From Actinomycetospora lutea (GTDB lineage Bacteria > Actinomycetota > Actinomycetes > Mycobacteriales > Pseudonocardiaceae): a stretch of DNA of 64,000 bases. The DNA lies in assembly GCF_028737205.1 (NCBI RefSeq), contig NZ_JAQZAL010000008.1, positions 1 to 64,000 of the forward strand, written 5' to 3'. The notes beneath the pieces were generated by a model. It was given only the letters and a program-made list of their open reading frames with translations, did not search any database and was not told the origin of the DNA. Shown here piece after piece: positions 563-61,224 of the stretch. Numbering within the stretch: the first letter of the stretch is position 1; every line of letters begins with the position of its first letter. The translations under genes and the position numbers were made by a program.

Positions 563-1666
563 TCACCCGGCCCGTCCCTCCAGGCGATGCGCCGCCTCGG
601 CGCTCGCGTCACGGACGATCGAGCGCACCGCGTCCGGCCCCGCGCCCGAGGCGAGCAGGGCCCCGACCAGCCCGGCGAGGCGGTGCGCCGGGTCGGCCCG
701 CAGGGCACGCTCGAGGGCGACGCCGACCAGCGCCGAACCGCCCCGCACGAGCTGCGCGCAGGCGAGCAGCACGGCGGGCTCGGCGACCTCCGGCGCGGGC
801 AGCGCCCGGACCAGCAGCGTCCACAGCTGCTCGGCGGCCGCCGCCAGGGCCTCGTCGGGGTCGAGCGCCCAGCCGATGGCGACGTCGCGGACCGCCGGGT
901 CGCCCAGGGCCACGGCCACGCGCGCGATCTCGGTGTCGGTGAGCACCCGCCCGCTCGCCACCTCGTCGCGCGCGGCGGTGACCGCGCCGAGGTCGCGGCG
1001 CGCGGCCGCCGGCCCGCCGAGCTCGCGGTCGACGGCCGCCGCCTCGAGCTCGGCGCGGATCAGCGCGGCGAGGCGCGGGAGGGGCGGCCCCGGGGCGAGC
1101 GAGGCCTCCAGCTCCGCCCGCGAGCCGTAGGTGACCTGGCCGAGCCACGCCGCGGCGGCCGCCAGCGGCGAGTCGTCGGTCGGCCCGACCGTGCCGCGGC
1201 AGTCGCACGGCGGGTAGCAGCACCAGGGCGCTCCCCCGGCGATGCGGGGCACCCACAGCCGCGTCGGGACCTCGACGCCGTGGCCGGCGAACGCCCCGCG
1301 GGCGGCGTCGGCGACGTCCCGGCGGGGCGGGTCGGTGCTGCCGGCGCCGCCGACGACGATCGCGATCACCTCGTCCGGCGCGGTCGCCGCGACGCGCGCG
1401 GCGCACCCGTCGACGACCGCGGCAAGGTCGTCGGGAGCCGGGAGGTCGACGCGGGCGACGACCCCGAGGCGCCGGCTGCGGGCCGGATCACGGGTCGAGC
1501 TCCGCTCCGCCGCGTCTCCCGGGCCGTGGACGGCGACGAGGACCAGCGAGTCGACGGGCCGGAACCCGAGCAGGTGGGGCACCGCGGCCACGAGCTCGCC
1601 GGGATCGCGCAGGCGCAGCCGCAGGGGGTCGGTGGGTCGGGTGGTCGGAGGGTGCTCGGTGCTCAC
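563..1666 (-). CDS. DUF4192 domain-containing protein
   Basis: A 367-residue actinobacterial protein of the DUF4192 family; the function is unknown. The family hallmark, a segment reading [15 protein letters not shown], is close to the N-terminus, and a cysteine-rich stretch ([14 protein letters not shown]) lies in the middle as in relatives. I start at GTG 1666 (protein VSTEHPPTT...) because the 20 upstream codons from ATG 1726 look unlike the family. The gene is divergent from sthA with about 115 nt between them. Residues about 49-58 ([10 protein letters not shown]) are encoded by a copy of the dispersed repeat described at 1494-1519, in a position relatives do not conserve. Confidence 0.8.
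1494..1519 (+). repeat. Dispersed coding repeat, family A, copy 1
   Basis: 26-bp element with core GAGCTCCGCTCCGCTGCGTC (one difference here), preceded by GTC. It lies inside the DUF4192 gene and is read on the minus strand as GDAAERSST. The same nine residues occur at the MiaB N-terminus (copy at 38510) although the proteins are unrelated, so the similarity is at DNA level. Confidence 0.8.
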
Positions 1667-1781
1667 ACCGGTTCGGACGCAGCCGCGGTTCCCGCGGATC
1701 CGGTGGATGTGCGGGCCTGTGGACAACCTCGCCGGCGACTGTTCGCTTGCCGGGGTGGGCGGTGACGGCGAGGGTGAGCAC

Positions 1782-59300: not shown

Positions 59301-61224
59301 CGAGCGCCACGTCCGCGACATGGAGGGCACGGCCGACCTGCTGCGTTTCGTCGGCGACCTCACCACCGCCGAGGCCGCGGCGCGCGGGGTGGCGCCGGAG
59401 TGGCTGAGCGAGCTGGAGTCCTCCCGCCGGGCGATCCGCGTCCGGGTCGCCGGCGAGGAGCGCTGGATCGCCATCGAGGACGCGGGCCGGTTCCGCGACG
59501 CGCTGGGCGCGGGCCTGCCGGTCGGGGTGCCCGAGGCGTTCACCGAGCCGGTCACCGACCCCCTGGGCGACCTGCTCGCCCGCTTCGCCCGCACCCGCGG
59601 CCCCTTCCCGGTGGCCGCGCCGGCCCACCGGTTCGGGCTGGGCGTGGCCGTGGTCGGCGGCGTGGTCGACCGCCTGGTCTCCTCCGGGCGGCTGGTGCGC
59701 GGCGAGCTGCGCCCCGACGGCGCGCCGCCGCTGCCGGGCGTGCCCTCCGGCCTCACGGGCACCGGTGTCGATGGTCCGGCTCGGCTGCGCTCCGCGTCCG
59801 GTCCCGACGTCTGCGACGCCGAGGTCCTGCGCCGCCTGCGCCGGGGCTCGCTGGCGCGGCTGCGCGCCGAGGTCGAGCCGGTGGAGCCGGCGGCGCTCGG
59901 GCGGTTCCTGCCGGCCTGGCAGGGGGTGGGCCGGAGGATCCGGCGCGCGCCCGGTCCCGACGACGTGCTGGGCGTCGTCGAGCAGCTCGCCGGCGCGCCG
60001 GTCCCCGCGAGCGCGCTGGAGAGCCTCGTGCTCCCGGCGCGTCTGCCCGGCTACTCCCCCGCGCTGCTCGACGAGCTCACCAGCGCCGGCGAGGTCACGT
60101 GGACCGGCTGCGGCACGCTCGCCGGCGGCGACGGCTGGCTGGCGGTCGCGCCCACCGACCTCGCCGACCTCCTGCTGCCCGACGCCGAGCCCGACATGGT
60201 CGACACCCCGCTGCACCGCGCGCTGCTCGAGACGCTCGACGCGGGCGGCGCCCTGTTCTTCCGCCAGCTCGGCGAGCGCACCCACGCGGCGCTGCGAGAG
60301 GCGGGCGAGTCGGACACCGGGATGCCCGACGACGCCGCGCTCGTCGCCGCGCTCTGGGACCTCGTGTGGGCGGGGCTCGCCACCAACGACACGCTCGCCC
60401 CGGTCCGGGCGCTCGTGTCCGGAGGCGGCTCGCGCGGCTCCGGCGGCTCGCGCGGCGGCGCCCACCGCCAGCGCCGCACGCCCTCGCGGGGCCGCTACGC
60501 CCGGCTCGGGCGCGCCCCGATGCCCTCGCGGACGGGTCCGCCGACCGCCGCCGGGCGCTGGTCGGGGGTGCCGGCGCGCGAGGAGGAGCCGACCCGCCGC
60601 GCGCAGGCGCGCACCGAGGCGTTCCTCGAGCGCCACGGGGTGCTCACCCGCGGGGCCCTCGACACCGAGCGCGCCACCGGCGGGTTCACCGGCATCTACC
60701 CGGTGCTGCGGGCCATGGAGGAGTCGGGACGCGCCCGGCGCGGCTACGTCATCGAGGGGCTGGGCGCGGCGCAGTTCGCGGTGCCCGGCGCGATCGACCG
60801 GCTGCGCGCCGAGTCGCGCGACGACGACGGTGCCGGCGAGCCGACGGCCCTGGTGCTCGCGGCCACCGACCCCGCCCAGCCCTGGGGTGCGGCGCTGGAG
60901 TGGCCCGCCACCGTGGGCAGCCAGGACGGAGGGACGAGCTCCCACCGCCCGGGGCGCAAGGCGGGCGCGCTGGTGGTGCTCGTCGACGGCGAGCCGGCGA
61001 TCTACGTCGAGCGGGGCGGGAAGTCGCTGCTGAGCTTCACGACGTCGCGCGAGTCGCTCGCCGCCGCCGCGGCCGCGCTGGCCACCGCCGTGCGCGAGGG
61101 CTGGCTGGGCAGCATCGCGGTCGAGAAGGCCGACGGCTCGGGCGCGCTCGACGGCGTGCTGGCCGACGTGCTCACCGAGGCCGGGTTCCGTCACAGCCCG
61201 AAGGGCCTGCGGCTGCGCGCCTGA
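56344..61224 (+). CDS. lhr: Large superfamily 2 helicase Lhr
   Basis: A 1626-residue 3'-to-5' helicase associated with DNA repair in actinobacteria (mitomycin-C-inducible in mycobacteria). Motif I VVAPTGSGKTLAA (about residue 55), motif II DEVH (about 180), motif VI QRVGRAGHQ (about 459), then the Lhr winged-helix and the long C-terminal Lhr domains. Compared with relatives it is about 100 residues longer because of linkers: an acidic DEDDEADEADE insert at about 345-365 and Gly/Ser-Arg runs near 1360. Three dispersed repeats lie in it, at the N-terminus and two linkers. No nei-type glycosylase gene follows, unlike many actinobacteria. Confidence 0.92.
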   Translation: MTPADGPAPLRSASVLDRFSPATRDWFTGAFAGATPAQEGAWDAVAEGQHALVVAPTGSGKTLAAFLWALDRLATTPPPEEPTRRCRVLYVSPMKALTIDVQRNLRSPLAGLGQAAQRLGLPRPDVTVGSRTGDTPADERRSFNRAPPDILVTTPESLFLLLTSAARESLRGIDTVIVDEVHAVLASKRGAHLALSLERLDALLDAPAQRIGLSATVRPIDEVAAFLGGGRPVRVVNPETTKTVQVRVEVPVEDMAALDSGGDNSSGPGVEEEVEGSAAGAAQRASIWPAVQERILDLVGEHRSTIVFANSRRLAERLTARINELATERAHAAEAERPPVDLDPDAPTDDEDDEADEADELAPVAGDGAERSPTRDHGSFPAEAVGQSGTAEPAEVIVARAHHGSMSRTQRTQVEEALKSGHLPCVVATSSLELGIDMGAVDLVVQVEAPPSVASGLQRVGRAGHQVGAVSTGVVMPKYRGDLVSCAVVAERMASGAIEAMHFPRNPLDVLAQHVVSMTAMEPWSVEDLTGLVRRAAPFAGLPDSALGAVLDMLAGRYPSDDFGELRPRITWDRVTDQLSGRPGAQRLAVTSGGTIPDRGLYTVVTPGAGEGGTGGSRVGELDEEMVYESRVGDTFLLGSTSWRVLDITRDRVVAEPAPGVPARMPFWKGDALGRPLELGRALGAFVRELSATDDDAARERAAAAGLDENATTNLLTYLREQKESTRHVPSDRTIVVERFRDELGDWRLVVHSPFGAQVNGPWALAIAARFRETRGLEVSAASADDGIVLRLPDALDEAGEEILPTAEDVLLDPDEVEQMVTAEVSNSALFASRFRECAARSLLLPRRDPTRRTPLWQQRQRAAQLLSVASRFEQFPVVLETMRECLQDVYDVPGLTELMRDVRSRGVQVVDVATTSASPFARTLMFGYVGMFLYELDAPLAERRAAALSLDSALLAELLGSEAIRELLDGEVLAEIEGQLQRTDPERHVRDMEGTADLLRFVGDLTTAEAAARGVAPEWLSELESSRRAIRVRVAGEERWIAIEDAGRFRDALGAGLPVGVPEAFTEPVTDPLGDLLARFARTRGPFPVAAPAHRFGLGVAVVGGVVDRLVSSGRLVRGELRPDGAPPLPGVPSGLTGTGVDGPARLRSASGPDVCDAEVLRRLRRGSLARLRAEVEPVEPAALGRFLPAWQGVGRRIRRAPGPDDVLGVVEQLAGAPVPASALESLVLPARLPGYSPALLDELTSAGEVTWTGCGTLAGGDGWLAVAPTDLADLLLPDAEPDMVDTPLHRALLETLDAGGALFFRQLGERTHAALREAGESDTGMPDDAALVAALWDLVWAGLATNDTLAPVRALVSGGGSRGSGGSRGGAHRQRRTPSRGRYARLGRAPMPSRTGPPTAAGRWSGVPAREEEPTRRAQARTEAFLERHGVLTRGALDTERATGGFTGIYPVLRAMEESGRARRGYVIEGLGAAQFAVPGAIDRLRAESRDDDGAGEPTALVLAATDPAQPWGAALEWPATVGSQDGGTSSHRPGRKAGALVVLVDGEPAIYVERGGKSLLSFTTSRESLAAAAAALATAVREGWLGSIAVEKADGSGALDGVLADVLTEAGFRHSPKGLRLRA
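56360..56389 (+). repeat. Dispersed coding repeat, family A variant, copy 5 (Lhr N-terminus)
   Basis: GTCCGGCTCCGCTGCGCTCC followed by GCGTCTG. It encodes Lhr residues about 6-15 (GPAPLRSAS) immediately before the conserved domain and matches the copy at 59774 closely. Confidence 0.7.
57439..57464 (-). repeat. Dispersed coding repeat, family A, copy 6 (Lhr linker)
   Basis: 26 bp, GGAGACGGAGCGGAGCGGAG then CCCGAC on the plus strand, the inverse of the 38510 element with three mismatches. It encodes GDGAERSPT after an acidic insert in Lhr. Confidence 0.8.
59774..59803 (+). repeat. Dispersed coding repeat, family A variant, copy 7 (Lhr linker)
   Basis: GTCCGGCTCGGCTGCGCTCC followed by GCGTCCG; preceded by GGTGTCGATG, which also precedes the copy at 38510. 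Encodes GPARLRSAS in a variable linker of Lhr. Confidence 0.75.

Follow-up and report, generated by a model that had tools for sequence, protein, structure and literature searches.

Very short dispersed repeats, possibly mobile, inside genes of Actinomycetospora

Introduction

Why do unrelated proteins encoded along one stretch of actinobacterial DNA share the same short peptide? The question is raised by 64,000 nucleotides (nt) of Actinomycetospora lutea (contig NZ_JAQZAL010000008.1, positions 1 to 64,000; this whole stretch is hereafter the window), in which a first-pass annotation had reported ten repeats of 26-35 bp inside protein-coding genes, ascribing them to a DNA element rather than to common protein ancestry. 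Here we show that the repeats have a core with common ends whose copies lie on both strands, vary in presence between close species and extend to distant genera. On balance, we favour reading the ten as copies of a mobile DNA element that is very short and non-autonomous. As the annotation had supposed, our literature searches, covering open-licence papers, found no description of it in actinobacteria.

Results

Ten repeats and their empty counterparts

The region syntenic to the window was fetched from five relatives, with 83-89% identity over the window. All ten reported places exist, and each of them lies in a stretch missing from at least one of these relatives, a comparison of orthologues that the first-pass annotation had proposed. 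The repeats had been described as one family; their ends are indeed related, but they fall into three subfamilies. Type A occupies the sites at 1494, 36984, 38510, 48716 and 57439, type B those at 19642 (with a 45-nt core) and, in degenerate form, 3255 and 34949, and type C those at 56360 and 59774. The insertions are listed below, with genomes of the genus denoted by G numbers (G000 being the genome of the window).

1484..1519, + strand (gene on -): type A in the DUF4192 gene, a 9-nt leader plus the 27-nt core (1493-1519), peptide GDAAERSST; net +36 nt against G017 and G002; from the open reading frame (ORF) and Pfam
3247..3300, + strand: degenerate copy of type B at the beginning of the kynureninase ORF; a net gain of 54 nt over G005, G009, G017 and G002
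19642..19686, + strand (gene on -): type B, 45-nt core with 3 mismatches, at the N-terminus of a putative DUF3037 gene; net 48 to 57 nt against five relatives
34949..34980, - strand: N-terminal in MiaA (IPPT), a type B copy that is truncated or degenerate; net +45 nt against G011 and +54 nt against G017; from Pfam
36984..37010, - strand: degenerate type A at the C-terminus of MiaB; from the alignment of relatives
38500..38535, + strand (gene on -): type A with an exact core at the N-terminus of MiaB; common to G009 and G008, absent from G005 (net 39 nt)
48706..48744, + strand: type A at the SdhA C-terminus, its core altered; common to G009, G017 and G002, with a net 39 nt over G005
56348..56383, + strand: type C at the N-terminus of Lhr; net 36 nt against G011, G009, G005 and G017
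57436..57473 (core 57439-57465), - strand: type A in an Lhr linker, peptide GDGAERSPT; net 36 nt against G011 and G005, absent from all 16 relatives aligned
59766..59805, + strand: type C in an Lhr linker; net 36 nt, type C being present in none of the 16 other genomes aligned

Pfam supported the gene identities proposed earlier (DUF4192, KYNU, IPPT for MiaA, UPF0004 plus Radical_SAM for MiaB, SdhA and Lhr). Several sites differ between relatives in more than presence or absence. G017 carries a fragment of an element end at the 19642 site, and G014 has a type A-like copy close to the Lhr-linker site at 59774. The flanks of the 34949 site are variable, and the clean comparison there is with G011, giving a net 45 nt. 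A 3-bp insertion had been read into the copy at 48716; the alignment does not bear this out, since the window, G009, G017 and G002 are of equal length there (net 0) and the window, G009 and G017 are each 39 nt longer than G005. At the C-terminal site of MiaB, type A is present in the window genome and in G011; G017 has a copy resembling type B there, and G009 and G005 have none. Types A and B were seen at the same or neighbouring sites of different species both here (36984 and its G017 counterpart) and at C95:137688 of the own genome and 151700 (joined piece) of G011, hinting at reuse of sites or exchange between types.

Copy number and structure of the ends

The type A core, GGTCGAGCTCCGCTNCGCTNCGTCTCC, is 27 nt long and almost free of stop codons. 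It has 129 near-copies in the own genome, 59+70 on the two strands by the full 26-mer pattern GTCGAGCTCCGCTNCGCTNCGTCTCC, where the reversed pattern has 0. Allowing up to 3 mismatches, the core occurs at 4 places in the window (0.03 expected from shuffles), and a genome-wide search of both strands, of the kind that the first-pass annotation had proposed, returned 63+62 = 125 matches in 6.53 Mb against 3+0 for the reversed pattern. Types A and B have common ends, GGTCGAG...CGTCTCC, around the 27-nt or 45-nt core, type B consisting of type A ends that enclose a longer middle; it has 27 copies in the own genome and is present in 17 of the 18 genomes of the genus. Types C and D differ from these in their end sequences, the ends of related subfamilies reading GGTCCGG...CGCGTCC (type C) and CGGCA...TGCCG.

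The unit is sharply bounded. In aligned loci, a G precedes it in 97% of cases and it terminates in CTCC in at least 98%, with two free positions (N), although these loci were fetched with the pattern itself, which favours exact ends. In 1.54 Mb of DNA fetched by synteny from six genomes, 115 left ends were found. A right end followed within 220 nt in 30 cases, at 27 nt in 20 of them, at 45 nt in 1 and at other distances in 9; in all fetched DNA, which is partly pattern-selected, 219 of 271 end pairs lay at 27 nt and 31 at 45 nt. Within each subfamily, two inner positions of one end agree with those of the other when inverted, pairing in 273 and 277 of 281 copies where composition predicts 234 and 227; binding of both ends by one protein would be expected to give such a match. 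In types A to C the inverted matches comprise the outer G and these two inner positions only, and the inner two co-vary across subfamilies. No hairpin accompanies them: types A and C fold no better than shuffles, and type B gave z values of -1.8 to +0.1 against shuffles, the -1.8 coming from one strand as RNA and being at best modest. Type D has a short stable stem, GCGGCA/TGCCGC, that is no better than in its own shuffles (z -0.8 and -0.2). The cores contain no GTAG.

A further short repeat, CCCGTCGCTNCGCTCGCCCC, is present in Actinomycetospora loci (for example L040 2495-2525, L136 11538 and L160 718). It has its CGCTNCGCT heart in common with types A, C and D, occurs as 12 core copies in the fetched DNA and is perhaps another subfamily of the element.

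Length of the insertions

Lengths of insertions collected without regard to the motif show a local peak at net 36 nt (28 of 581 sites, with 17 at 33 and 13 at 39), in a sample where shorter lengths such as 15 and 18 are commoner and sites shared by genomes are counted more than once. Judged by eye, 17 of the 28 rows at 36 nt are members of the family. Copies matching the type A pattern and facing an empty relative gave a net 36 nt in 12 of 22 cases, 39 in 7 and 27, 33 and 35 in one each; up to 4 mismatches were allowed in this count, so that type C is caught too, and shared sites were counted once per genome. For type B, with up to 9 mismatches, 5 of 6 copies showed a net 54 nt against at least one relative, and 45, 48, 51, 53 and 57 were also seen. 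The gain is thus usually the core plus 9 nt (36 for type A, 54 for type B), longer than the 26-35 bp first reported. It is a multiple of three in both types, so the reading frame is kept inside genes, as had been noted earlier, and the added residues usually number 12 or 13 for type A and about 18 for the longer form.

Distribution across genomes

The type A pattern was found in all 18 Actinomycetospora genomes, at 2 to 181 copies, and in 0 of 62 other genomes of the family and order. Counts per genome were 181 in G009, 155 in G014, 129 in the own genome, 14 in G002, 10 in G017 and 2 in G005; G009 and G005, whose identity is about 93% around lhr and reaches 91.5% over 315 kb, nevertheless hold 181 and 2 copies. 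In broader samples the pattern occurred in 4 of 397 genomes of the order, two of the own genus and two of one other genus, and in 2 of 396 genomes of the phylum. An exact scan of genome contigs gave at least 112 matching stretches, and the 80 inspected were of Actinomycetospora, Williamsia and one Mycobacterium. Seven Williamsia records, one flagged as unverified in its title, carry 23-59 copies each. Plasmid records were also retrieved, 10 of 18 of them from Rhodococcus, those listed mostly sharing 19 exact bases only; the exact pattern had 0 matches in viral contigs. Spread on known plasmids or phages was considered and rejected, the best E values being 0.1 and 2.

Three Mycobacterium-type genomes, M. 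pinniadriaticum, G133 and G174 (ileS stretches L351, L352 and L196), have a single copy each, all in the same ileS codon and all adding 36 nt. Two of them, G133 and G174, were putatively assigned to Mycobacterium because their ileS resembles the M. pinniadriaticum gene. An ileS match was obtained in 114 of 118 sampled genomes of this Mycobacterium-type genus, and all 13 aligned non-carriers are without the insert. In a tree of 31 ileS sequences each carrier groups with non-carriers, with local support of 0.95-0.998. The cores of the three carriers differ only at N, and their leaders are different; the shared codon could reflect independent insertion, short-tract recombination or both. The idea that ileS is a special home for the repeat was also examined. 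In Actinomycetospora, where ileS was matched in 16 of 18 genomes, the stretch has 312-321 nt for 103-106 residues, leaving no room for an insert, and the W. muralis ileS stretch in L236 also lacks one.

Genes and reading frames

Coding frames were called by third-position GC, in a sample of copies that favours near-exact ones. Single type A copies lie in coding frames in 107 of 145 cases, slightly fewer than random positions do (1579 of 1890; p 0.004), as do 20 of 34 single type B and 11 of 19 single type C copies; for tandem type A copies the figure is 20 of 79. The earlier statement that both orientations and more than one frame are used can be extended, as both strands and all six frames were seen among intragenic type A copies. 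One frame nevertheless holds 52 of the 107 single copies (p 7e-17). It reads GGA GAC GNA GCG NAG CGG AGC TCG ACC and encodes GDxAxRSST, and this strong preference is why the peptide recurs in unrelated proteins. The copies had been placed mostly at protein termini; there is an excess near the stop codon, which lies within 75 nt of 25 of the 104 intragenic single type A copies where 5.7 were expected, but most copies are internal. An excess within 150 nt of the 5' end of the open frame (21 copies, 11.4 expected) is less clear, true starts not being known.

The extra nine bases and tandem arrays

The 9 nt added beyond the core can mostly be placed to its left and are variable, with a loose tendency to GNNYCGAT. 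Left and right flanks resemble each other at exactly 9 nt (identity 0.378 against 0.307, z 6.2), and the flanks of copies favour CC on the left and CG on the right. A clean event with good flank resemblance is that at 265941 (joined piece) of G009, which has GTCACC on both sides.

Tandem arrays are direct repeats, and 36 nt is their commonest period: 43 of 72 intervals in 38 arrays are of this length, and 33, 34, 35, 38 and 39 nt also occur. In 22 arrays, the spacers matched the left flank at 130 of 198 positions (shuffled 72.9, standard deviation (sd) 6.8) and the right flank at 110 of 198 (shuffled 69.9, sd 6.4), the latter agreement being strongest at the first three positions (52 of 66; shuffled 28.7, sd 3.4). 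The arrays look as if formed by recombination between imperfect 9-bp repeats, and so speak for a target duplication, unlike the poorly matching insertions discussed below.

Other repeats in the window

A near-perfect long palindrome, GTGAGCGGAATTCCCGGCTGTAGCCGGGAATTCCGCTCAC, lies at 11343-11392 of the window and is absent from G017, and palindromes like it with other arms are insertions in G017, G005 and G009; the genus seems also to have a classical hairpin repeat family. A 66-nt stretch at 4431-4496, with inverted arms around GCAGCGAACG, is missing from G002. Tandem repeats at 28533-28638 and 57372-57407 (15-nt units; an acidic linker in Lhr) differ in length between species and appear to be ordinary slippage.

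Discussion

A mobile element and its alternatives

If the repeats are mobile, some enzyme acting in trans would recognise both element ends and insert the element at targets that frequently have CC to the left and CG to the right. The nine additional nt would then be a target duplication that has changed heavily, or else a variable portion of what moves, and the short imperfect repeats flanking a copy would permit tandem arrays with a 36-nt period. Selection would remove harmful insertions, leaving one favoured frame (GDxAxRSST), a C-terminal excess and arrays mainly between genes. More tentatively, and with less than even confidence, we suggest a new class of ultra-small mobile DNA, with a non-hairpin core of 27 or 45 nt, moved by an enzyme of unrecognised kind, whose core-plus-9 landings in genes would give peptides mostly of 12 or 18 residues, and which would have crossed between Actinomycetospora, Williamsia and Mycobacterium, reaching the same ileS codon in three Mycobacterium lineages kept apart by the ileS tree.

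Several observations weigh against transposition. No mobilising enzyme was found, and no longer element with the same ends was present in the 1.54 Mb of synteny-fetched DNA. The inverted similarity of the ends covers few positions, and the pairing of end positions reflects about three subfamilies, not many independent events. An exact target duplication, which would be expected, was not found in the flanks of copies: flank identity reached 75% or more in only 10 of 148 single copies (1.1 expected), though the cores are perfect. Flank similarity is raised at 6 and 12 nt too (z 2.9 and 4.9), so codon periodicity contributes to the 9-nt signal. The left 9-mers share 8-mers among themselves (26 pairs, against 5-10 in control windows), and these 9 nt may therefore partly belong to the element. 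In the clean events at 131141 of G009 and 172486 of the own genome the extra bases are unlike the target. The most recent insertion seen, at 40055 (joined piece) of G002, was identified by comparison with G017, to which it has 95.3% identity over 3947 aligned nearby positions; the 9-mers beside its core agree at 4 of 9 positions (CGAC), which weakens the target-duplication reading, lowers our confidence in transposition and raises that in templated repair. The check for target duplication proposed in the first-pass annotation therefore has a mixed outcome, the extra 9 nt being weakly target-like in the statistics and not so in the most recent insertion.

Under templated repair, breaks at CC/CCG sites would be filled, through microhomology or template switching, with copies of a fixed short DNA or a donor locus; the junction bases would vary, and no dedicated transposase would be needed. 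The junction bases are indeed variable and mostly not copies of the target, the CC and CG preference of the flanks fits such sites, and our failure to find a mobiliser, in the domain searches described below and in the search for a parent element, is in keeping with it. The five new bases to the right of the core in the G002 event, GAGGG, are moreover the reverse complement of CCCTC in the left flank; this could be chance or a trace of fold-back copying, and it is not general, as inverted similarity between leader and right flank was flat when looked for across copies. Sharp ends, added length concentrated at core plus 9 and subfamily ends that match as pairs are harder to obtain in this way, and we hold templated repair to be rather unlikely, although deserving of consideration. 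Retrotransposition of a small RNA by a reverse transcriptase would account for the fixed sequence and discrete lengths; RVT_1 (PF00078), however, was matched in 4 of 18 genomes of the genus, 3 of them above the cut-off, and not in G009 with its 181 copies, and with 0 Rfam matches in the window, hence no known RNA family there, this explanation seems very improbable. The reverse-transcriptase matches of the own genome are at C11:45404, C43:25310 and C18:177452, and among 17 relatives only G002, G007 and G006 (below the cut-off) had one.

A hairpin of the repetitive extragenic palindromic (REP) type, moved by a REP-associated tyrosine transposase (RAYT, Y1 HUH), or a CGTC-tagged REP would likewise be small and dispersed with some intragenic copies, CGTC does occur near one end, and type D has a short stem. 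Yet Y1_Tnp (PF01797) was matched in 0 of 18 genomes of the genus at E<=0.001, against 5 of 14 control genomes, and the repeats fold like shuffles, type B at best modestly better. In CGTC REPs, as PMC3733652 describes them, an unpaired CGTC adjoins a stem of 8-9 bp whose loop has 4-5 nt; the CGTC found here is not such a tag, and this origin is largely refuted. A chromosomal binding site kept by selection, such as a segregation, uptake or repair motif, might explain a core that is exact across genera and used in both orientations, but we judge it improbable, as copy numbers range from 2 to 181 among species of one genus and sites are not conserved between species. Shared copies moreover diverge in place: in 12 pairs, some of which align poorly, differences affect 24 of 288 core and 3 of 24 N positions, and selective constraint on the core in place was rejected accordingly. 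Convergent peptide linkers or a shared protein motif would be suggested by the recurrence of GD(A/E/G)AERS(S/P) and by the one frame that holds about half of the intragenic single copies. The non-coding copies refute this reading, since 38 of the 145 single copies and 59 of the 79 in tandem fall outside the coding frames called; given the six frames and two strands, it has next to no probability left. The repeats are found in genes and between them and are missing from orthologues, which upholds the original ascription to a DNA element rather than to protein ancestry.

Significance

To our knowledge, the mobile element that we favour would rank among the smallest mobile DNA units described. 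With 181 against 2 copies in sister genomes about 93% identical around lhr, the question of what moves such tiny repeats becomes testable, and the in-frame gain of 12 residues raises that of useful protein variation.

Comparison with known repeats

We believe ERIC, BOX and dRS3 to be unrelated in sequence to this element. Like it, these and other small bacterial repeats are dispersed and occasionally intragenic; ERIC and BOX are named in PMC10969869, and dRS3 in PMC3733652. Miniature inverted-repeat transposable elements (reviewed in PMC10969869) are likewise non-autonomous, mobilised in trans by inference and capable of in-frame fusions; the present element is much shorter than these and has no parent element in the sampled 1.54 Mb, a terminal inverted repeat being clear at a few positions at most and a target duplication weakly supported.

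REPs have been sorted into GTAG and CGTC families, and the intragenic cases include the stem-loops RPE-4 and RPE-6 of Rickettsia, classed as CGTC REPs (Di Nocera and co-workers, PMC3733652). By that account the GTAG and CGTC REPs resemble the Actinomycetospora repeats in being 20-40 bp long and dispersed, with some copies in ORFs, and CGTC REPs, too, are without a known transposase; REPs are nevertheless stem-loops, mostly intergenic and often head-to-head dimers, whereas types A to C have no stem, most single copies fall in coding frames and the arrays consist of direct repeats.

In their effect, the closest counterparts are the Rickettsia palindromic elements (RPEs), which are about 150 bp long and lie in frame in Rickettsia genes (PMC10969869). 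The comparison had been drawn from the outset and holds for the effect, an in-frame insertion that is tolerated, and not for the structure, as types A to C form no hairpin and the unit is far shorter than RPE-1. In contrast to RPEs, types A to C are not palindromic, and the present element has a core of 27 or 45 nt, high-GC actinobacterial hosts and insertion lengths that concentrate at core plus 9. We know of no enzyme identified as the mobiliser of RPEs. As a further clear case, beside Rickettsia, of repeats routinely colonising bacterial proteins, here in high-GC actinobacteria, the element would share with RPEs the features of small repeats that sit in frame in many unrelated genes, are tolerated there, are absent from orthologues and encode a conserved peptide.

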